Below are positions 1,521-18,805 of a stretch of 26,055 nt of DNA, piece after piece; the first letter of the stretch is position 1, and each line of letters opens with the position of its first letter. The stretch is taken from the IMG/VR virus record IMGVR_UViG_3300030104_003863, positions 1 through 26,055 of that record; one strand, written 5' to 3'. The notes beneath the pieces were generated by a model, which ran no database searches, was not told where the DNA came from, and saw only the letters and a list, made by a program, of their open reading frames with translations. Source of the stretch: a virus. The position numbers were made by a program, and so were the translations under genes.

Positions 1521-3349
1521 TGCCAGTTATAGCCAACAACTCCTTAGATGACTCGCTGCTCCTAGACGGGAACAACAGTTTTGTTGGTGGTCAGGTTAGT
1601 GCTCCCCGCGCAAATCTTGTTCCGCAGGATGCTTATGCTGAAGGCAAGAACATTGACCTTGATGAGTTTGGAAATGCTGTAACTCGTAGGGGTGCAAGTC
1701 TTGCAGCGGGGTATTTAGTGTGGAATGAGGTTAATGTTAACTGGGAAAGTGAGAATGCGGTATGGGAGGGGTTAGTCGCGCCAATAACTTCATTGGGTTA
1801 TTTTGACACTGGCAGCACTGAGTACATAGTAGTTGCTGATGGGTCTAATTACTTAAAAGCAATCACTGAAAACGGCAGCTTTACTCTTCTTACTGGAGCA
1901 ACTTATGCGTCTGGAGCCACCATAAGGTTTGCCCAACTAAATAACCGCTTTTATTACACTGATGAAACCAACAATTTAAGGTACGTTGAAGGCTCAACTG
2001 ATCCGGTCACTGCCCAGACTATTACTGCTGGAAAGATTACCGGAATAAACATTACTGAGGGTGGATCAGGCTATACCAGCCCACCTACTGTTACTATTGA
2101 TGCCCCTTCTTCCGGTGTGACTGCTACAGGCACAGCAGTGCTGGGGTATGATGGCAGTGTGGTTAGCGTGACAATGACCAATGAGGGTAGCGGGTACAAT
2201 AAAGATAACCCGCCTTCTGTCACTTTCTCTACTTCAAGTGGAACTGATGCAACTGGGACAGTTAGAATATCTCAAACCCCTAGTCAGCCTAAGTTTATTG
2301 CTTCTCACACTAATAGACTTTTCTGCACTAGCGCAGACTCTACTGTGCCCTCTGATTTGCTTTATGTTAGCGGGATATTAGATGGTGATGCGTGGGATTT
2401 AGCTGGAGACAATTTAAGAATAGGAAATGACCGAGACCCTATAACTGCATTAATGCCAGCCCAGAACTTTGACCTAATTGTGTTTAAGGAAAGGAGCATT
2501 TATAAGGTTAACTGTGATCCGACTAAAGAAGTTCATCAATGGGACATTAAATTAATTAATAACCGGACAGGTTGTGTGGCAGACGGAACAGTACAGCAGG
2601 TTGGTGCGGATATTATGTTCCTGTCGCGTGACGGTGTTCGTTCTTTGCAGTCTATTCAAGCAGGTACAGAGACAGATATTTCTTTGCCTATTAGCCGCAA
2701 TATAAATGATTACATTGGCCGGATTAATCAGGCTCAAGTTAGTAAATGTACCGCAGCATATTGGAGGAACCGTTACATGCTTTCTGTTCCATTGGACTCA
2801 GCCACCAACCCTGACACGGTGCTTTGTTACAACCTAATGGCGGGAGCTTGGTGTGGATTCTGGACAGGCTGGGAGGCTAGAGATTTTGTTATTACTGCGT
2901 TTAGCGGTCAGTTAAAGCTGAACATAGGAACGCAGAATGGAGAGCTTTACACTTGGGACGACACAACTCCAGAAGCGGATACGACCATAGCTGATTATAA
3001 AGACGGCAATAACACCTATGAATCTTACATAACAACCAGAGCATACACTTATGGAGAAACGTGGGGTGATAAGATTGGTTACTCTTCTCAGTTTAACTTT
3101 GGAAATATCCACACTGACGCAGTTACCGGAGATATAACTTTATTTAAAGACCTGTCGTCATCCGGTAGTTCGCTGGATTCAAGTTTGTCCTTAACTGGCA
3201 GCACCAACCTGATCCGAAAAGGTTACAACACTTTGTCAAAAGGCAGGTTTGACCAGATGCAATTTAAAGTAAAAGCAGACGGAGGAAGGCTTTCCCTGCA
3301 CACCATCCAAACCAGTGCGTTTGGTCAACCTATTGATCCGCAGAAATGA
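1520..3349 (+). CDS. tail nozzle / DNA-stabilisation protein, tail tubular B-like
   Basis: A 609-residue, beta-strand-rich protein with repeated propeller-like strands (YIVVADGSNYLKAI, FAQLNNRFYYTDE, DLIVFKERSIYKV, DIMFLSRDGVRSL, YWRNRYMLSVPLD, LCYNLMAGAWCGF), as in T7 gp12 and P22 gp10-type podovirus nozzle or hub proteins. Residues about 171-250 hold an inserted pair of GSGY repeats (GGSGYTSPPTVTI and EGSGYNKDNPPSVTF), a motif common in phage surface modules. It would sit at the tail tip, keep packaged DNA in and take part in host contact. It overlaps both neighbours by one to four bases. Confidence 0.65.
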   Translation: MPVIANNSLDDSLLLDGNNSFVGGQVSAPRANLVPQDAYAEGKNIDLDEFGNAVTRRGASLAAGYLVWNEVNVNWESENAVWEGLVAPITSLGYFDTGSTEYIVVADGSNYLKAITENGSFTLLTGATYASGATIRFAQLNNRFYYTDETNNLRYVEGSTDPVTAQTITAGKITGINITEGGSGYTSPPTVTIDAPSSGVTATGTAVLGYDGSVVSVTMTNEGSGYNKDNPPSVTFSTSSGTDATGTVRISQTPSQPKFIASHTNRLFCTSADSTVPSDLLYVSGILDGDAWDLAGDNLRIGNDRDPITALMPAQNFDLIVFKERSIYKVNCDPTKEVHQWDIKLINNRTGCVADGTVQQVGADIMFLSRDGVRSLQSIQAGTETDISLPISRNINDYIGRINQAQVSKCTAAYWRNRYMLSVPLDSATNPDTVLCYNLMAGAWCGFWTGWEARDFVITAFSGQLKLNIGTQNGELYTWDDTTPEADTTIADYKDGNNTYESYITTRAYTYGETWGDKIGYSSQFNFGNIHTDAVTGDITLFKDLSSSGSSLDSSLSLTGSTNLIRKGYNTLSKGRFDQMQFKVKADGGRLSLHTIQTSAFGQPIDPQK

Positions 3350-3756
3350 ACTCACTGAACCTAATGACATTGGCAATCGGGCAGCTTTTTCATAAGCACC
3401 TAGACCATTGTAAGGATTGGAAACCTGCCACTTTGTTGAGGTGGGTGGAATGGTTCGTCGTCAAAAAGAGGTACTGGACAGTGGTAAGAGACGGAGAAAT
3501 TGCCGGAGCAGTTTTAATACGGTTTGTTGACAGTCCTGAAGATTGCAAGTCAAACTACATAGATACTGGTGGCAGAATTTGTTTTGTAGATGCTGCTGTA
3601 GCAAAGGGAGACGGAGTGCTGAAGGAACTTTATACAAAGATGTTTAATGATATGGGCCATAAAGCTGACTCAATGGTTTGGGTTAGGCCAAAACATAACG
3701 ACAAAATAATTAGTGTTCCAATGGAGCAAGCAAAAAGAAGATTAATAAAGGAATAG
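3346..3756 (+). CDS. gp13-like internal/assembly protein, GNAT-like
   Basis: A 136-residue protein, close in size to T7 gp13 and in the same place between nozzle and internal core genes. The strands YWTVVRDGEIAGAVLIRFV and ICFVDAAVAKGDGVLKELYTKMF look like the central strands and following helix of a GCN5-type acetyltransferase fold, with a GDG turn near the acyl-CoA loop position. No complete acetyl-CoA motif (Q/RxxGxG/A) is present, so catalytic activity is doubtful. It is coupled to the nozzle gene by ATGA and ends four bases before the next gene. The name rests on synteny and fold impression only. Confidence 0.45.
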   Translation: MNSLNLMTLAIGQLFHKHLDHCKDWKPATLLRWVEWFVVKKRYWTVVRDGEIAGAVLIRFVDSPEDCKSNYIDTGGRICFVDAAVAKGDGVLKELYTKMFNDMGHKADSMVWVRPKHNDKIISVPMEQAKRRLIKE

Positions 3757-3760
3757 AATT

Positions 3761-5938
3761 ATGGGCAAATCATCAGCACCTCCAGCACCAACACCACCCT
3801 CTCCTGCCGACATAGCTGCGGCTAATACTGAGTCAGCACAGGCTATGATGGAACTGCAACGGGCAATGCAGTTTGGTGACGAGGTAATGAAGCAGGGCTA
3901 TATGAGGGAGAGTCTTGGGGTTCCTACAGGAGCAACCCCAGTTTATTCCTCTGAAACCGTAAAAACTACTGGCCCAAAAGAAATTTACCAGCAAGACCGT
4001 AAGGATGTTGACGGAGATGAATTACCTGAAAACGAATATAAACTTTTTACTGTAGACCCAAATGGAAACCTTCAGTTTGTTAAAGGGGTAAATAAGCCAT
4101 CTTGGGCCAGTCAATATAAAGGAAAACCTTGGTACACTTTAAGGGATGACGGGCGAAATTTGCCTTCTTCGGGTAATCAAACAGTAAATCAAGATGTAAA
4201 GACTTTAACTGGCTATAAAAATGCAGACGGCACAATTACTGAAGCATATCAATATTTTAAATTAGATGAAGACGGCTCAAGAGTAGCGGTAGATAGAGAT
4301 GAAGCAATTCAAGCAGACTTTGCAGGAATGTCTGACATTGATTTGGCAAGAAAACAATTTGAGTTTGAGCAGGAAACTTCCCCTGAAAAAACTCGGTTTT
4401 TACTAGACCAACTTGAACAGTTCGGGCCGGAGGCAGCTAGGATTGGGCGTGATGTTCTGCAAAGAACAGACCCAACCGGATTTGCTGCGCGTGAACTGCT
4501 TGGAGAACTGGCACAGGCATACGAGCCGTCACCAGTGCCAGATGCTCCAACAATGCAGGAGGCAGGAGATGCACCTACGGCTGAGAGAATAGATGCACCC
4601 CCAACCCTTTCAGAAGTTGCTTATACTCCAGAGTACCAGAGGGCAGGTGAGTTAGGTGATCTTGGTAGAGTGCAAGCAGCACCACAGTTTGCCGAGCTTG
4701 ACACTACTGGCCCAACTCTCGGACGGGCTGGGGAAATGGATGCTCTGGAAAGAACGCAAGCAGCACCTAGTCTTGAAAGGTTACAGGATATTCCTGAATT
4801 AACCGCTGACCCAACTTCAATGGCCGGAAGAAGGTTTGCTGAACAACAGTACATTGATCGGGCACAAGATGGTCGCACTTCTCAGTTAATGGCAGAGGAG
4901 GCAAGAAGAGTTGCTAGAGGCAGAGCAGCAGCAACCGGAAACATTTTTGGAGGCGGGGCAGCTATAGAAGAGGCTCGCACAGTAAGGCAAGCTGAAGATG
5001 CAGGACAACGTCAGGCTTTATCTGACTTAATTGGATTCCTGCAATCAGGGCAAAGTGCTGGAGACTATGAGTCTCGCCTTGCCCAACAGAATCTAGCCAA
5101 CCGCCTAATGGGCATCCAGCAGAGAACAGGAGCGGAACAAGCAGAGTTTGGAATGGGTCAGCAGGTTACAGAACAGCGCAATGTTGCTGCAATGCAGGAA
5201 CGTGCTGACCAACTGGCCGCGCTTGGGCAGCGTAATCAAGCTGAACAACAGGAGTTCCAAAACTTACAAGCCGCACTTGACCAGCAGAACCAAGTGAGAG
5301 CGCAACAATTCGGTGCAGATATGCAAGCCACCGAGTTTAACACGCAACAAAGAATGCGTGAGCGAGCAGATGAGTTGGCAGCTATGGCTCAACGTAATCA
5401 GGCTGAAGAGTCTGAGTACCAGAACTTGCTTCAGGGCTTGCAGCAACAACAGAACGTCAGAACCGCAGGGTTCGGTATGCAGCAACAAGCAGTTGCTCAA
5501 AGGAATCAAGCTGCCGAGTCTGACTTTGCTAAACAGCAATCGGCACTGGCTCAACGTAATCAAGCTAGACAGCAATCCTTTGCTAATGCAATGCAAAGGA
5601 CTGCTACGCAGCAACAAATGCAACAACAGCAGATGGCTAACTTACAGAGCTTTAGCGGGTTAGCCCCTGTCAGTCAACAGTTTGGTGGAATGGCTGGAGC
5701 GGGACAGGGTATGGCAACTACCTTCAACCCAATCCAATATCAACCTACCAGCGCACAATCCTTACTGCAGGGACAACAGCAGTTGCAGAGCAACCTGTTT
5801 GGTACTCAATCACAGAACTGGGCAACACAAGCACAAATGGCCAACCAGCCTAGCGCATTTGGGCAGATACTGGGAACAGGGCTGGGAGCATTTGCCGGAG
5901 GATTTGGGGCTAAAGCAGGAAAGAAAGCATTTAGTTAA
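3761..5938 (+). CDS. Gln-rich ejection / internal virion protein with repeats
   Basis: A 725-residue protein opening with MGKSSAPPAPTPPSPAD, a Pro/Ala start common in podovirus internal proteins. The middle carries a repeated Ala/Pro segment (RAGELGDLGRVQAAP, RAGEMDALERTQAAP). The C-terminal third is a long Gln/Asn/Arg coiled-coil region in which RNQA recurs four times (RNQAEQQEF, RNQAEESEY, RNQAAESDF, RNQARQQSF) at about residues 490-610. It ends in a Gly/Ala-rich hydrophobic stretch (ILGTGLGAFAGGFGAKAG) that could insert in a membrane. A good ribosome site (AAGGAA) precedes the ATG. Position corresponds to T7 gp14, which enters the host during DNA ejection. Confidence 0.55.
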   Translation: MGKSSAPPAPTPPSPADIAAANTESAQAMMELQRAMQFGDEVMKQGYMRESLGVPTGATPVYSSETVKTTGPKEIYQQDRKDVDGDELPENEYKLFTVDPNGNLQFVKGVNKPSWASQYKGKPWYTLRDDGRNLPSSGNQTVNQDVKTLTGYKNADGTITEAYQYFKLDEDGSRVAVDRDEAIQADFAGMSDIDLARKQFEFEQETSPEKTRFLLDQLEQFGPEAARIGRDVLQRTDPTGFAARELLGELAQAYEPSPVPDAPTMQEAGDAPTAERIDAPPTLSEVAYTPEYQRAGELGDLGRVQAAPQFAELDTTGPTLGRAGEMDALERTQAAPSLERLQDIPELTADPTSMAGRRFAEQQYIDRAQDGRTSQLMAEEARRVARGRAAATGNIFGGGAAIEEARTVRQAEDAGQRQALSDLIGFLQSGQSAGDYESRLAQQNLANRLMGIQQRTGAEQAEFGMGQQVTEQRNVAAMQERADQLAALGQRNQAEQQEFQNLQAALDQQNQVRAQQFGADMQATEFNTQQRMRERADELAAMAQRNQAEESEYQNLLQGLQQQQNVRTAGFGMQQQAVAQRNQAAESDFAKQQSALAQRNQARQQSFANAMQRTATQQQMQQQQMANLQSFSGLAPVSQQFGGMAGAGQGMATTFNPIQYQPTSAQSLLQGQQQLQSNLFGTQSQNWATQAQMANQPSAFGQILGTGLGAFAGGFGAKAGKKAFS

Positions 5939-5971
5939 CATTGTGTAACACAATGTTCTACGTAGAACATT
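5937..5971. promoter_or_regulatory. composite palindromes A+B between two ejection genes
   Basis: Two perfect palindromes overlap here. Palindrome A spans 5937-5957 (21 bases, core ATTGTGTAACACAAT, single-base centre at 5947). Palindrome B spans 5952-5971 (AATGTTCTACGTAGAACATT) and shares AATGTT with A. The stop codon of the upstream gene lies in the first base pairs of A, and the ribosome site AAGGAG of the next gene begins just after B. The same pair recurs elsewhere in the window, so this is likely a binding site for one or two dimeric DNA-binding proteins. Confidence 0.75.
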
Positions 5972-5984
5972 AAGGAGTAATAAA

Positions 5985-7379
5985 ATGGCATTAAATCTAA
6001 GAGGATTCGGTGAGGCTTTTTCTCAATCGTTCAACAAGACCTTCGGCCAGACACTAGAGGACTTGTTTAAGAAAGACGCAGAAAAGAGAAAAGAAAAGAA
6101 AGCACAAAAGCTAAGGGACTCTGTGTCAGACTCAAGGTACGAACTTGCCATGAGGCTTGCAGGTGATGAGGCAAAAAAGTCTGTTGCGGGAAAGTTTAAG
6201 CCTAAAGGAATGCACTCAATAGAAGAGGGGATGTTTGATGTAAGCACTCCCAGCGAAAAAATGGAGACAGCATTGCTATCGGAAAAGTTTAAAGAAGGAA
6301 AAGATAAAGCAAGAGTAATGAAAGATGTTATGTCTGATCTGCTTACCGACGAAGCACAGACTAGAAGGGCCGAGGAGTTAAGGCAAAAGATGAGGAAAGA
6401 AAGGAAGCAAGATGCTAATAGACCCGAAAAGAAAGCAACTAAAGAAAATATAGGCTTAATTAACACTGCATTAAGAGACTCACTTTCAACTAAATCAAGA
6501 GGTGAAGGTGACATTGCAACAAGAGTGCCGACCCAAGTTTGGGTAGATGAAGGGCTGTTTGATGAAAACAGAAGGGCAACAAAAAAACTATCAAAAGCAC
6601 TTAGAATGGGAACTACGGCAGGGCAGGAAAACCTTAATAATTTGCGAGAGTATGTAGCAGAAAAGGGTCAACTTCCTGCAGCAAGTTTGATAGGAACAAG
6701 TGAACTTGGTAGACAGGTTAAGAGCTGGAAGGGTGAATCAGATAAGGTAAAATCTTTAGAAAGCAACACTAAAGTCTTAAAGGCAGTGCACTCTGCGCTA
6801 AGACTGAAAGGCGATGATGGAGCAGCAGCAGCAGCAGCAGCAGGACTCCACCCTTGGCCTTCTAAAGAATTTAAGGATGAAACACTAGCAACATTATTCA
6901 GAACCAAAGATGATCTTAATTCTGCTATAGGACAATTTACTCCGCTAGAAATGGCAAGTTACAATTCACATTTAGCTAGAGCAAATATAGAGAAAGCAAT
7001 GAAGCAAGAAGCAAAGGACGAAAAAAGAACTGAGACTACTCAGGAAATGCGAAGAGTCTACAGGGATCAAGCAAAAAGACTGTCAGAAGACTTTAAGTCT
7101 TCAAGTTATGATGAAGAAGGAGTGCCAGCATATGTATTACTTCCATACAGTAGCACTACAGACAATGGCAGGCCTTACACTCTTTTTAAACCTATCTTTG
7201 ACCCAAGGCACAAAAGAACGCAAAAAGACATAAAAGAGGCAAACTCAAAAGCAAAAGAACTTATACTAAAAGTTAACCCTTGGATGAAAGAAGATGCAGG
7301 TGACAGTGGAAGCGTTGATTTCGGAGGAGGCCAAAATGCAACTTGGAAGAAAAAGTTTGAGCCACACACAGACGAGTAA
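5985..7379 (+). CDS. internal virion protein (gp15-like position)
   Basis: A 464-residue, very charged and mostly helical protein without transmembrane segments. It starts MALNLRGFGEAF after a strong AAGGAG site. It carries Lys/Glu-rich stretches (KKDAEKRKEKKAQKLR; QKMRKERKQD) and, near residues 280-286, seven alanines all encoded by GCA. It lies between the Gln-rich protein and the giant ejection protein, with TAATG coupling to the latter, which is the place of T7 gp15 in the internal core that crosses the periplasm. No family motif is recognisable, so the function is inferred from position alone. Confidence 0.5.
   Translation: MALNLRGFGEAFSQSFNKTFGQTLEDLFKKDAEKRKEKKAQKLRDSVSDSRYELAMRLAGDEAKKSVAGKFKPKGMHSIEEGMFDVSTPSEKMETALLSEKFKEGKDKARVMKDVMSDLLTDEAQTRRAEELRQKMRKERKQDANRPEKKATKENIGLINTALRDSLSTKSRGEGDIATRVPTQVWVDEGLFDENRRATKKLSKALRMGTTAGQENLNNLREYVAEKGQLPAASLIGTSELGRQVKSWKGESDKVKSLESNTKVLKAVHSALRLKGDDGAAAAAAAGLHPWPSKEFKDETLATLFRTKDDLNSAIGQFTPLEMASYNSHLARANIEKAMKQEAKDEKRTETTQEMRRVYRDQAKRLSEDFKSSSYDEEGVPAYVLLPYSSTTDNGRPYTLFKPIFDPRHKRTQKDIKEANSKAKELILKVNPWMKEDAGDSGSVDFGGGQNATWKKKFEPHTDE
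6822..6842 (+). repeat. GCA x7 trinucleotide run
   Basis: Seven consecutive GCA codons encode a poly-alanine run flanked by Gly. Perfect trinucleotide tracts of this length can change by whole codons without breaking the frame, so length variation between isolates would be expected. Confidence 0.9.
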
Positions 7380-13820: not shown

Positions 13821-14258
13821 ATGGGAAAAGACAACAAAAGAATAGGAAACACTGCTGAACTTGAAGTATCTGCTAAGTTGTCAGCTTTGGGTTATGAGGT
13901 TAGCTTTCCTTTTGGGGAATCTGCATACGACCTGATAGCCAACAAAGGCAAGAAACTAATCAGGATACAGGTTAAGTCAGCAACCCTGTCGGATAAGGGG
14001 AGTTACAGGTGCGCTCTAACTCACGGCACGAGCGGTCAAAACAGGTACACTAAGGATGACTGCGATGCCATAATACTTTATGCTCCCTATTCAAAGGACT
14101 ATAGTGATGTGTGTATCGACGGGTTTTATGTTATCCCGATAAAAGAGATAGTAAAGTCAGGTGCTCAACACGCTTTCTTGTTTCCAGAGGGAAAAGGAAA
14201 AGGGAATTACAAGACCTGCAAATGGGAGAAGTTTAGAAACGCATGGAAAAAGTTATAA
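13821..14258 (+). CDS. PD-(D/E)XK endonuclease (homing/resolvase-like)
   Basis: A 145-residue protein with the nuclease signature in order: Glu13 (GNTAELEVSAKLSALGY), Asp37 (SAYDLIA) and Gln50-Val-Lys52 (IRIQVKSA). The pattern E...YDLI...IRxQVKS is that of small PD-(D/E)XK endonucleases, including cyanobacterial intron homing enzymes and phage resolvases. It would cut DNA using a divalent metal. It stands apart from the ejection genes, after palindrome A and without a ribosome site, and may be transcribed separately. A homing role or a late recombination/packaging role are both possible. Confidence 0.7.
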   Translation: MGKDNKRIGNTAELEVSAKLSALGYEVSFPFGESAYDLIANKGKKLIRIQVKSATLSDKGSYRCALTHGTSGQNRYTKDDCDAIILYAPYSKDYSDVCIDGFYVIPIKEIVKSGAQHAFLFPEGKGKGNYKTCKWEKFRNAWKKL

Positions 14259-15845: not shown

Positions 15846-16184
15846 CTAGAACTCCGACTGTTCGGACTCAGCAACAGGCTGCTCCGACTCTACCGGATGT
15901 TGGAGTTGCAGCGAGATGAACTTACCGTTCGCCCCGTCTCTTCCCCATCCTCCGATCTTACAGAATAACTTACCTCCGTTATCCTTGATAATAGACTGGA
16001 CTTCTTCACTAAAGACCAGATGACAAGCACCCCTGTAATCAGGCTCCTTCTCATTCTTCTTGTTCTCATTCTTATTAAGAGTATGAGAATATACCTTACT
16101 GGTCTTAGGGTTTATGTTTTCCTGTCCGTCTTCTTTCTTTGCTGGCTCAGTCAGGGTGAGCCACTTCGTATCACTTCCACTCAT
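15846..16184 (-). CDS. hypothetical protein, possible OB/DUF736-like
   Basis: A 112-residue protein with a polar, disordered Lys/Asn-rich first half (KTSKVYSHTLNKNENKKNEKE) and an ordered second half (YRGACHLVFSEEVQSIIKDNGGKLFCKIGGWGRDGANGKFISLQL). The GWxRDGxxGKFISLQL strand pair faintly recalls DUF736 and other small single-strand-binding-type folds, but this is weak. The end is Glu/Ser/Val rich (ESEQPVAESEQSEF), like the acidic tails of SSB proteins. Together with ERF and nuclease genes in the same region, a single-strand DNA role is plausible but unproven. There is no Shine-Dalgarno; ACTAAC lies two bases before ATG. Confidence 0.45.
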   Translation of the reverse strand: MSGSDTKWLTLTEPAKKEDGQENINPKTSKVYSHTLNKNENKKNEKEPDYRGACHLVFSEEVQSIIKDNGGKLFCKIGGWGRDGANGKFISLQLQHPVESEQPVAESEQSEF

Positions 16185-16202: not shown

Positions 16203-16784
16203 CTACTTATTTAAAAGACTAAGGGTGTGCAATAGCTTTTCCTTAGCCTTATCTTTATCCTTCAACCTCATGCTCCGCATGAATACATCAAGCACACCAT
16301 CGAAGTTGTCGGGGTTTCCTACTGCCTTTGATAAGCACCGATGTAACCTGTCTGGATTGTTAGCCGGACAGATTGTTTTATCAGCACACCACTTGCAGTA
16401 ACTACATGGTTCAGGAAGTTTGTCCGAGGACTCAACCCCATCTATGATAGAATTGACTACCTCTTCTGCGACCTCCCTAGCCACACTCATGTGACTTACC
16501 ACACGAGTTTCAGAATATAACAGATAGACATTAATCTGGTCAAGGTTGTCCCTCTGGCATAATGCCGCAGCATAAACCAACATCTGAGGGACGTAATCTC
16601 TTTCCATGCCTGTCTTTAGATCAAACAGATGACCAGTGAAATAGGCATCAAGATACCCGAACGTCATCACCCTGCCATCCTTTTTGTATTTAACTAATGT
16701 TTCAGTTTCTAAATCTTTATCAGCTCTCTCAGCCATAGCTATGACTTTATCTGCTGCCCACCTTACTCCTTCGTTCTCCATCAT
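16203..16784 (-). CDS. C-terminal part of a split RecB/Cas4-like nuclease
   Basis: A 193-residue protein with the catalytic half of a RecB/Cas4-type PD-(D/E)XK nuclease: Glu28 region (LETETLVKY), Asp46 (FGYLDAYF), Asp55-Leu-Lys57-Thr-Gly (LFDLKTG) and the Q-x3-Y motif (YVPQMLVYAAAL). A cysteine cluster CSYCKWCADKTICPA (Cys127, 130, 133, 139) resembles the iron-sulfur motif of Cas4/AddB. The usual N-terminal part (first cysteine and RGTxxH motif) is missing here and is found instead in the gene at 17553-17744. The start is preceded by AGGATGAG. If the two chains associate they would form an exonuclease, likely the partner of the ERF annealing protein. Confidence 0.7.
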   Translation of the reverse strand: MMENEGVRWAADKVIAMAERADKDLETETLVKYKKDGRVMTFGYLDAYFTGHLFDLKTGMERDYVPQMLVYAAALCQRDNLDQINVYLLYSETRVVSHMSVAREVAEEVVNSIIDGVESSDKLPEPCSYCKWCADKTICPANNPDRLHRCLSKAVGNPDNFDGVLDVFMRSMRLKDKDKAKEKLLHTLSLLNK

Positions 16785-16792
16785 AACTCATC

Positions 16793-17290
16793 CTAAAAGA
16801 AGTCACTAACTCCAAGCAAGTTATCCAACTGAAACATTGGCCTGAGCTGAGATACGTGCCTGTAATAACAGTCAGTATTTAGAGGGGGCCAAGATTTAAC
16901 AGGCATCATCCTCATAATCTCACGAGTCTCCCAGCCTAAGAACTCGATTGACGGTGAAGATTCGCCTTCCTTGTACTTAGCCAGAACCGCTATGTCAGAC
17001 ATTACATCTATCTCCCAGCTTTTAATCAGAAGATTGTACGGGTTACGGTTTGCCTTTACGTCTACTGACACTTTCCTGTCACCGACTATGACCCAGAAAT
17101 CAACATGACCATCACCCTCCGGCCTGATCTCCCTGTCTACCTCAAGGTTATATCTCTTAGCAAAGGCAAGTTCACCTGCAACCCCCATGATGTCCTCAGT
17201 GTTGGGGTCATCATAGAGTCTGGGTGTTCCGTTCGGGTGCGCTGCCTGTCTGGCTTTGCCTAGCTTTTCCGCTTCGCTTTCTTCTTTCAT
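16793..17290 (-). CDS. PD-(D/E)XK nuclease nested inside the split nuclease
   Basis: A 165-residue protein with its own complete nuclease core: Glu40 (GVAGELAFAKRYNL), Asp64 (GDGHVDFWVIVG) and Asp77-Val-Lys79 (VSVDVKANRN). GELA...GxVDF...xDVKA is typical of small restriction-like and freestanding homing nucleases. It starts in a TAATG overlap with the gene before it and ends eight bases before the C-terminal nuclease part, so it lies in the middle of what looks like one older gene. It may be the mobile element that split its host gene. Confidence 0.65.
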   Translation of the reverse strand: MKEESEAEKLGKARQAAHPNGTPRLYDDPNTEDIMGVAGELAFAKRYNLEVDREIRPEGDGHVDFWVIVGDRKVSVDVKANRNPYNLLIKSWEIDVMSDIAVLAKYKEGESSPSIEFLGWETREIMRMMPVKSWPPLNTDCYYRHVSQLRPMFQLDNLLGVSDFF

Positions 17291-17595
17291 TAGAATAAAT
17301 GCTCCTTTCCTCCTTCAGAAGAATACTTCTTACCCTTCTTAATCTCATCGAGCCTCCTCTGCCTTAGTCTTTCAGCAACTGCCAGCTTTCTCTTGCCGTC
17401 ATCTGAACATGACTCACACTTGAGGCCCATACTCTGTACAACATCGGCAAGTCTGGATTCGTAGTCTGATTCATCATCAAACTCTATCTTCACTGAAGTG
17501 CCGCAAATCCCAAGAGGAAGCAATCTTCTCTCGCCATTACTATCCCCCCACTCTAGTGGCCCGTTGCATCTTTGTTCGATCGTAACTTTTGCCAT
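17290..17595 (-). CDS. hypothetical protein next to the nested nuclease (101 aa)
   Basis: Starts inside the N-terminal nuclease part, overlapping it by 43 bases, and ends in TAATG overlap with the nested nuclease. Beta strands (AKVTIEQRCNGPLEWG; LLPLGICGTSVKIEFD) are followed by CESC and a basic helix (KRKLAVAERLRQRRLDEIKKGKK). I recognise no family. The basic C-terminus suggests nucleic-acid or protein contact. It may be the second cargo gene of the insertion that split the RecB-like nuclease. Confidence 0.55.
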   Translation of the reverse strand: MAKVTIEQRCNGPLEWGDSNGERRLLPLGICGTSVKIEFDDESDYESRLADVVQSMGLKCESCSDDGKRKLAVAERLRQRRLDEIKKGKKYSSEGGKEHLF

Positions 17596-17744
17596 TTTTG
17601 TAAATGCTCCTCGAACTCGTCATGCAGCAAAGTGCCACGCCTAGCTGCGGGACTGCTCGATTTTGATGGTTTATAACAAGCACACTTCTCGAACGCGGGG
17701 AACGATGAAGGTGGCAACTTGTCGTGATGTTTTCTCTCGCTCAT
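17553..17744 (-). CDS. N-terminal part of a split RecB/Cas4-like nuclease
   Basis: A 63-residue protein (MSERKHHDKL...) with the N-terminal signature of RecB/Cas4/DUF2800-like nucleases: LPPSSFPAFEKCACY (Cys21, Cys23), then RRGTLLHDEFEEHL with the conserved GTxxH (residues 37-41). In intact relatives this is followed directly by the segment that here begins the gene at 16784 (NEGVRWAADKV). After EEHLQKWQ the frame continues only 12 residues to a stop, and the cargo gene begins within it. A TTG start 15 bases upstream is possible, but it lies inside palindrome A; the ATG at 17744 is preferred. No Shine-Dalgarno is present. Confidence 0.6.
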   Translation of the reverse strand: MSERKHHDKLPPSSFPAFEKCACYKPSKSSSPAARRGTLLHDEFEEHLQKWQKLRSNKDATGH

Positions 17745-17745
17745 G

Positions 17746-17774
17746 ATTGTGTTACACAATGTTCTACGTAGAAC
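17746..17774. promoter_or_regulatory. composite palindromes A+B before the split nuclease operon
   Basis: Palindrome A (17746-17760, ATTGTGTTACACAAT) is joined directly to palindrome B (17761-17774, GTTCTACGTAGAAC). Centres are 14.5 bases apart, the same as at 5937-5971. A ends one base from the ATG of the first gene, and B overlaps the arm of the neighbouring hairpin. This placement would let a bound protein control the start of the split nuclease operon. Confidence 0.75.
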
Positions 17775-17862
17775 TCAGGGACGGCAGGAATGAGTAAACC
17801 GCCGTCCCTGAGTCTGAGGGTGCATGAGGCCAAAGGACAACCTCATTCATGGAGCGCACCCT
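17773..17862 (-). other. two tandem hairpins after the ERF gene
   Basis: Immediately after the ERF stop the left-going RNA can form a compound stem (7 plus 6 pairs with a 9-base bulge, 17817-17862) and then a perfect 13-pair stem with a 15-base loop (arms 17773-17785 and 17801-17813). Neither is followed by a T-run. They fill the whole gap to the palindromes, so they could end the ERF transcript, protect its 3' end or regulate the next operon. Confidence 0.65.
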
Positions 17863-18474
17863 TTAGTCTAGTAGTGATGCCTCCTTTGTCCGAGTCATCA
17901 CAGGTCGTCCCTTTTTCTTTGGTTGTTCTGAGGGGGTAGGGTTTCTGCCCATCAATGATTCAGCATCATCGTCCTCCCCTTCAGCCGTGCTGATGTTAAG
18001 CATACAGGACTTCAGACCCCTGCGATTATAGGTCATCCCGCCTAGCACAGCTTGAGGGTCTTTCGGCCCTTTAACCCCCGTCTTAATTGTTATCTTACCT
18101 TCGAGCCATTGATCTCCGCACATCACTATTCCGCGCTGAAATTCAACAACCTGAATCTCCTCTTTCTCTATGACCTCAACTCGTCCATCAGGATGAGTTG
18201 TAGTCTTGACTGACTTCAACCTCTCCAGAGTAAAATCAGGAACACAAGAGAAAGCCATTCCAGCCTTCTTCAGTGGTTCCTTTGTTACCTCAATCAGTGC
18301 GTTGATGTCTGCGTATTTAGAGGGTACTTTATTCCCATCTTTATCAGTCTTAGTAAAGAAAGGTTGATCGCTCCCTCTTACTGCTGACTGTAGTTCTGAT
18401 TGGAACTTAGCCATTGCAGTGCCTAGCACTAACTTTCCGTTAGTCTTCTCTTTTTTATCTGTCGTCTTTTCCAT
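17863..18474 (-). CDS. erf: ERF family single-strand annealing protein
   Basis: A 203-residue recombinase of the ERF group. The N-terminal helices (LGTAMAKFQSELQSAVRGSD) lead to KYADINALIEVTKEPLKKAGMAFS, the typical YADL...L...G core. The domain closes with the family hallmark around residues 154-180 (AVLGGMTYNRRGLKSCMLNIS followed by EGEDDDAES). The C-terminal tail is basic (KKKGRPVMTRTKE). ERF proteins coat single strands and anneal homologous DNA, helping genome circularisation and recombination. Nearby resolvase-like and RecB-like nuclease genes supply matching activities. Its start lies 20 bases inside the upstream gene. Confidence 0.85.
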   Translation of the reverse strand: MEKTTDKKEKTNGKLVLGTAMAKFQSELQSAVRGSDQPFFTKTDKDGNKVPSKYADINALIEVTKEPLKKAGMAFSCVPDFTLERLKSVKTTTHPDGRVEVIEKEEIQVVEFQRGIVMCGDQWLEGKITIKTGVKGPKDPQAVLGGMTYNRRGLKSCMLNISTAEGEDDDAESLMGRNPTPSEQPKKKGRPVMTRTKEASLLD

Positions 18475-18805
18475 TTTCTGCTTTTATAGGTTGCATTGTA
18501 ATGAGCTTGAAAAATACCCACTCAGGTACTGTAACCATCCAAGGCCCATGATTCTTTTTATGGGCCACTAATGGCATCATCTCACCACAATCTTTTTCTG
18601 CTTGTTTCATTGCTTCCGCAATGTTCAATCTCTCAACACGCTTCACCTCCATGTGGAAGGGAAGTTCTGAGATCACATCAGGGGAGTCAGGACTGCCTGA
18701 AAATTGCTGCCCTCTCCTTGCCTCAAAGCCGTGAGCCTTGATCCTGTCGCGCCATTCTCTTTCACCGCGACATCCTTTTTGTCTGCTGTTAATCGCCTTT
18801 GTCAT
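18455..18805 (-). CDS. PD-(D/E)XK Holliday-junction-resolvase-like nuclease
   Basis: A 116-residue protein (MTKAINSRQKG...) with KGCRGEREWRDRI (Glu15/Glu17), SPDVISELPFHMEVKRVERL (Asp43, Glu53-Val-Lys55) and a helix AEAMKQAEKDCGEMMPLVAHKKN. This is the common phage resolvase-like pattern: ERE near the start, PDV, E-x-K, then a QA helix and a strand pair with HxxN. It would cut branched DNA formed by ERF-driven recombination or before packaging. The ATG at 18805 is preferred over an upstream TTG because AAGG is well placed. It overlaps the regulator gene by 17 bases. Confidence 0.7.
   Translation of the reverse strand: MTKAINSRQKGCRGEREWRDRIKAHGFEARRGQQFSGSPDSPDVISELPFHMEVKRVERLNIAEAMKQAEKDCGEMMPLVAHKKNHGPWMVTVPEWVFFKLITMQPIKAENGKDDR

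Follow-up and report, generated by a model that had tools for sequence, protein, structure and literature searches.

The DNA analysed here, called the window below, is the whole of an IMG/VR virus contig of 26,055 bases. Four ORFs, all on the minus strand, follow one another where the initial annotation had placed them (Table 1): the two pieces of a RecB/Cas4-like exonuclease and, between them, as that annotation had also claimed, an intact PD-(D/E)XK nuclease gene together with a small ORF. The small ORF starts with an ATG within the N-terminal piece (N-piece), which it overlaps by 43 nt in a different frame, and its GAGGAG ribosome site sits inside the N-piece; it in turn overlaps the nested nuclease gene by 1 nt (TAATG), and the C-terminal piece (C-piece) starts 8 nt past the nuclease stop with an AGGA-type ribosome site. 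Because an ERF annealase and a resolvase lie upstream and an SSB-like protein downstream, the locus is a phage recombination operon. The PDDEXK_15/RusA-like resolvase is carried by 34 of the loci collected (see below), 32 of which are split-exonuclease loci.

Table 1. Features of the split exonuclease locus (positions are those of the window)
Feature	Position	Strand	Description
N-terminal exonuclease piece	17553-17744	-	63 aa; Fe-S cysteine C21/C23 and motif-I histidine H41 (RGTLLH); sequence FEKCACYK...RRGTLLHDEFEEHLQKW
Small companion ORF	17290-17595	-	101 aa; four conserved cysteines, apparently Zn-ribbon-like
Nested PD-(D/E)XK nuclease, family A	16793-17290	-	165 aa; E40, D64, D77xK79
C-terminal exonuclease piece	16203-16784	-	193 aa; GYLDA (motif II), DLKTG (motif III), QMLVY, CSYCKWC...C
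ERF-type single-strand annealing protein	17863-18474	-	PF04404, E = 5.7e-6; phrog_2324, E = 3.7e-12; upstream of N-piece
PDDEXK_15/RusA-like resolvase	18455-18799	-	phrog_244, E = 4.4e-17; upstream, syntenic in nearly all split contigs
Single-strand DNA-binding-like protein	15846-16184	-	phrog_7364, E = 1e-3; downstream of C-piece; kept in L005
Perfect palindrome TTGTGTNACACAA	17747-17759	.	2 nt before N-piece start; candidate operator of the split-exonuclease operon

The palindrome TTGTGTNACACAA occurs in nine perfect copies in the window (at 5941, 13797, 17747, 19952, 23203, 24077, 24279, 25638 and 25860), against 0.07 expected, and a second palindrome, TTCTACGTAGAA, precedes two of the nine; the repeated element looks like a candidate phage-wide operator or promoter. 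A perfect 13-bp hairpin lies at 17773-17813, between the ERF gene and the N-piece, and a similar one seems present in the related contig L005; given this hairpin, the split exonuclease may start its own transcript. At least four PD-(D/E)XK proteins are encoded in the window record, including the resolvase and a further protein at 13821-14258 (PF11645, PDDEXK_5). A 226-aa ORF at 20817-21497 matches only the C-terminal half of PHROG 2554 (292-512 of 529, E = 5e-56) and is possibly another shortened or split gene.

One exonuclease encoded by two genes

In PHROG 69 (exonuclease), the N-piece matches profile positions 96-141 weakly (E = 0.05) and the C-piece matches positions 166-331 (E = 1.6e-12), and the two are therefore consecutive parts of one family. 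The family falls within the PF12705/PF01930 superfamily, for which the Pfam score of the C-piece is below the curated cut-off (19.4 vs 22), and a PDB sequence search with the exonuclease profile returned ACE1 alone (E = 0.34). The signature assigned to the N-piece by the initial annotation (cysteines and RGTLLH) is found there, as the first Fe-S cysteine and the motif-I histidine, and GYLDA, DLKTG, QMLVY and the remaining cysteines are all located in the C-piece. The proposal that the halves in succession make one normal family member is borne out by alignment: the joined N+C sequence runs end to end with intact phage exonucleases as one protein, and reads straight through the Akkermansia phage exonucleases WAK79052 and WAK78991 with a gap of a few residues at the joint. 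At its C-terminal end, the C-piece is also about 90-110 residues shorter than the intact relatives. The PD-(D/E)XK core (motif II Asp, motif III D-x-K and QxxxY) is complete in the C-piece, whereas the motif-I histidine and the layout of one N-terminal and three C-terminal cysteines become complete only when both polypeptides are counted. In Cas4 proteins, the N-terminal cysteine is the first cluster ligand and the histidine is the motif-I metal ligand, and an N-terminal Cys and His with C-terminal cysteines is the standard of the family (PMC4176176). Judged by motifs and alignments, the earlier observation of an exonuclease split over two genes is confirmed and does not reflect a chance resemblance.

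Scans of IMG/VR and of prokaryote genomes brought up 34 distinct contigs with a split gene (duplicates of one contig were removed by hand) and about 125 loci where it is intact; retrieval was pattern-based, and the frequencies of split and intact loci are therefore biased. All nine matches in prokaryote genomes are from Verrucomicrobiota, and both of the matching phage records are of phages that infect Akkermansia, so the hosts of these phages are probably Verrucomicrobiota. The independent contig L005 has the same four genes as the window, with amino acid identities, from N-piece to C-piece, of about 78-79%, 58%, 70% and 79%, and the dN/dS between the two is 0.07-0.24 across the four genes (0.24 for the N-piece, 0.24 for the small ORF and 0.12 for the C-piece). 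A self-splicing intron or an intein was considered and rejected: an Rfam search of the window from 14 to 21 kb found no intron, the insert is packed with tightly overlapping ORFs, and the pieces have their own stop and start.

States of the junction and the order of events

The 34 split contigs differ in what lies between the two pieces (Table 2). Within state (d), L107 and L116 have no MazG-like gene, and L119 has an insert without a nuclease. As an example of the second split site, the pieces of L124 are at 3009-3437 and 5010-5513 of that contig, with four genes between them. The five nuclease families found in the gap are mutually unmatched by BLAST. Homologues of the small ORF of the window are in the same place in L005, L098 and L099. 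The MazG-like gene and the 269-aa gene of the gap are homologues of g138 and g276, respectively, both of which are upstream in the window, and the gap has therefore been filled partly from the phage's own operon. Between L115 and L116, identity is 97-100% from a point about 150 nt inside the C-piece onward, and the sequences upstream of that point have diverged; on this comparison, the divergence point is a recombination boundary at the split junction.

Table 2. What separates the exonuclease pieces in split contigs
State	Content of the junction	Contigs
(a)	no insert, 8-nt cistron overlap (ATGAGTAA)	L093, L100, L102, L103
(a)	no insert, 17-nt overlap	L011
(a)	no insert, 40-nt overlap	L026, L036, L038, L095
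(a)	no insert, 19-nt overlap	L132, L143
(b)	small Zn-ribbon-like ORF and nuclease family A	window, L005, L098
(c)	same small ORF and a different nuclease (Pfam PDDEXK_14, E = 1.2e-21)	L099
(d)	MazG-like gene, nuclease family B or C, sometimes a 63-73-aa CxxC protein, and a 61-aa gene	L096, most of L105-L118
(e)	second split site, between GYADA (motif II) and DLKTG (motif III); gap with 269-aa protein, two small ORFs and PHROG 13596 nuclease	L123-L126

The nested nuclease of the window retains E40, D64 and D77-x-K79, which are invariant in six homologues, and its AlphaFold2 model (pLDDT 85.5) has a restriction-endonuclease fold, for which the Foldseek matches, many of them restriction enzymes, are weak and include Eco15I, HincII, Hjc and I-Ssp6803I. 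Searches of phage records and single-sequence scans of IMG/VR with this nuclease found nothing, and it took an alignment-based scan to retrieve homologues. Its identity is 57% to the copies that stand alone in unrelated phages (L179-L181), 45% to genes beside a phage exonuclease in L182-L184, and only 38% to the nuclease in the same slot of L098. In L182-L184 (about 3000-6100), the homologue immediately follows a YqaJ-like exonuclease gene and has a RecT-like gene nearby (names assigned by reading the sequence), which appears to be a second association of nuclease A with recombination modules, in an unrelated phage. Neither the nested nuclease nor PDDEXK_14 was found elsewhere, as a required partner, in the incomplete contigs of the relatives.

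The initial annotation had proposed that the nested gene resembles a free-standing homing endonuclease such as mobE, which splits T4-like nrdA. In that case, a PD-(D/E)XK homing endonuclease would have cut and invaded an intact exonuclease gene, and the relatives whose pieces merely overlap would be later deletions of the insert. As in mobE/nrdA-type cases, the exonuclease has uninterrupted homologues (the intact loci counted above) and the nested ORF is a nuclease with intact catalytic residues. It is consistent with this proposal that every class of insert but that of L119 holds a PD-(D/E)XK nuclease, from five unrelated families including PDDEXK_14, that family A is free-standing in unrelated phages, and that PD-(D/E)XK homing endonucleases are known (e.g., I-Ssp6803I, one of the weak matches above). 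In the L105 group, the nuclease gene also differs less between phages (dS 0.15) than the flanks do (dS about 0.4); this and the L115/L116 boundary indicate that genes in the gap turn over, which homing would explain and ordinary recombination equally well. However, a mobE/nrdA-type origin would leave the gene unsplit in relatives that lack the endonuclease, and at least 11 contigs of three lineages (L011, L093, L026, L036, L132, L143 and others) have the break at the same site with no insert. Furthermore, the inserts also carry ordinary phage genes from the operons of relatives (the MazG-like and 269-aa genes), the nuclease of the L105 group is between the MazG-like and 61-aa genes, away from the break, and no significant match to a homing-endonuclease family was obtained for the nested nucleases in profile searches. 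Since the relatives point to the split having come first, with gap genes that come and go, the nested nuclease is probably not what split the gene, and invasion of an intact gene is an unlikely account. The earlier interpretation thus stands for the single family member in two pieces and for a likely two-chain enzyme, and is not supported for the nuclease as the splitter.

In a maximum-likelihood tree of 70 exonucleases, the window, L005, L098, L099, L011/L093, the intact L009, L096-L119 and L026/L036 form a group of 16 (support 99/97), in which members with only an overlap branch off at the base and also form the sister group of the four that include the window; L123-L125 and L132/L143 are lineages of their own. 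L009 is the sole intact member inside the split clade in the best tree, with weak placement (91/62); a split-only clade is not rejected (p-AU 0.083), and the tree of the resolvase gene leaves the position of L009 without resolution. By parsimony, the simplest reading is at least three fissions, each of them first and the insertions later; it is possible that inserts were gained and then cleanly lost in the overlap lineages, which needs more steps. On the fission-first reading, a frameshift or an overlap would have broken the gene within the loop that follows the motif-I helix, in an ancestor of this phage clade and ahead of the arrival of the nested genes. Since each piece is a cistron of its own with a ribosome site, the joint would now work like any other junction between operon genes, and accessory genes, namely, PD-(D/E)XK nucleases of several families, Zn-ribbon genes and MazG-like genes, would have been inserted and swapped there.

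The two pieces as a probable two-chain enzyme

The initial annotation had judged a two-chain enzyme likely because both halves keep their key residues, and the relatives uphold this: the N-terminal Cys and His, motif II, DxK, QxxxY and the C-terminal cysteines are all kept across the two pieces in 34/34 split contigs, and the motif-I His is kept in only 16 of the 125 intact members. Distances among N-pieces and among C-pieces are correlated (Mantel r = 0.868, 0/5000 permutations), and purifying selection acts on both (e.g., dN 0.03 and dS 0.39-0.42), that on the N-piece equalling that on the C-piece. Every split record gives a single N match and a single C match, with no further, intact copy (the N-pieces of L026 and L095 were seen in a separate junction analysis), and the C-piece has its own Shine-Dalgarno sequence: GGAGGA in L005, GGAGG in L098, AAGGAG in L099 and AGGA in the window. 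The fold was examined on the intact relative L009, standing in for N+C; in its AlphaFold2 model (pLDDT 89.8 overall), His41 is in helix 32-51, the main break maps to the loop at 52-63 directly after this motif-I helix, where the pLDDT dips to 75, and the second break site maps to a turn at 109-110. Foldseek matched the model to AdnA, SSO0001 Cas4, MGME1 and RecE (E = 4e-5 to 1e-3), and to ACE1. A two-chain exonuclease is therefore likely on the sequences at hand. The RecB/Cas4-like Fe-S exonuclease of the ERF recombination module would be produced by the phage as two polypeptides, of which the 63-aa N-piece would give the first cluster cysteine and the active-site histidine, and the 193-aa C-piece the metal-binding Asp, DxK, QxxxY and the other three cysteines. 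From the motifs and the model, the pieces are expected to fold together in trans around the Fe-S cluster; the cluster and the nuclease activity of the split enzyme are likewise predicted.

If the C-piece alone were the working nuclease, the N-piece would be a separate small regulatory or DNA-binding leftover of the fission, outside the active site. In favour of this, motifs II and III, QxxxY and three cysteines are all on the C-piece, cysteine mutants of Cas4 can retain activity and the Pcal_0546 and SSO1391 Cas4 proteins are active without an Fe-S cluster (PMC4176176), and the motif-I His is replaced in most of the intact members sampled. Nevertheless, the invariance of the His and Cys in the N-pieces, the co-divergence of the two pieces, and the shortness of the N-piece, which is the first two helices of the family and nothing more, render this very unlikely, and in L123-L126 the break is between motifs II and III, so neither piece is complete there.

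Programmed frameshifting that would bridge the split, or a mistake in assembly or sequencing, can hardly account for the arrangement, in spite of A5-A7 runs at the overlaps of L026, L036 and L038 and a good -1 site (A_AAA_AAA) in L036: L093 and L011 need the other frame and have no A run, two whole genes lie between the pieces in the window so that no frameshift can join them, no intron RNA was found, and the same arrangement occurs under selection in tens of independent contigs. Frameshifting was thus rejected as a general explanation, as the frames differ by lineage. The A5-A7 run lies exactly at the frame change in L026, L036 and L038 (about 6138-6190), and A_AAA_AAA in L036 is a possible candidate for a -1 frameshift site giving some fused product.

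Taken as a whole, a split exonuclease whose pieces assemble in trans, with fission first and the joint then serving as a slot for accessory genes, is the best explanation of the locus, with a probability of roughly 0.74. A bolder version, which we consider rather unlikely, holds that the split, present in three lineages and at two sites, is selected and not tolerated, the small N-subunit with its His and Cys being an activator that has to be produced on its own, and that unrelated PD-(D/E)XK nucleases, moving through the recombination operon by homing-like exchange, land at the joint again and again.

Comparison with known systems

The nrdA-a/nrdA-b genes of Aeromonas phage Aeh1, split by mobE, and gene 60/39 of T4, split by mobA (PMC2988022), are like the present locus in having an essential phage enzyme in two pieces, a nuclease gene between them and intact homologues, and the nrdA pieces have been shown to reassemble (PMC2988022). 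In those cases, however, the split goes together with the nuclease, which is a homing endonuclease of the HNH type, whereas here the split occurs without a nuclease, and the nuclease is of the PD-(D/E)XK type and interchangeable. The DNA polymerase genes 43A/43B of Aeromonas phages 25 and 44RR are split with or without a nuclease gene, their pieces co-purify as an active enzyme, and a seg endonuclease may have invaded an already split gene 43 in phage 25 (PMC2988022). By analogy, this last option would fit the exonuclease better than the nrdA/mobE model does. The exonuclease family resembles the gene 43 case with far more intermediate states: gene 43 is a different enzyme, split in two phages, whereas the exonuclease is split in three lineages and at two sites, with nucleases of at least five families.

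The Fe-S nucleases of the Cas4/AddB/RecB type (SSO0001 and Pcal_0546; PMC4176176) share with the split exonuclease motifs I-III, QxxxY, the 1+3 cysteines and a fold match, but are single chains in the solved cases examined, whereas the first Cys and the His are on another polypeptide in the window. The nearest named relatives, the exonucleases of the Akkermansia phages Chantilly and Chambord (WAK79052 and WAK78991; PHROG 69), have the same domain order and are likewise encoded beside a single-strand annealing protein gene, but they are uninterrupted, about 31-32% identical, and have Asp in place of the motif-I His. Nuclease genes are also known from the mosaic boundaries where phages exchange DNA, inside essential phage genes or beside them (PMC10448857); these belong to homing endonuclease families, to which the nested nucleases here have no significant match. 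A literature search, which was not exhaustive, found no earlier split RecB/Cas4-type phage exonuclease. The locus is thus of a known kind, a split phage gene with a nested endonuclease, and what is new is its RecB/Cas4-type exonuclease version. It would represent a natural two-chain form of a Cas4/RecB-type Fe-S nuclease, with the cluster and the active site shared by proteins of 63 and 193 aa. Invasion by an endonuclease is the usual explanation for phage genes that are split and have an endonuclease gene nested in them. The exonuclease family, with about 34 split contigs, brings together in one set splits without an insert, different inserts, a second site and intact relatives, and because all these junction states are present in a single family, the order of fission and invasion can be tested.
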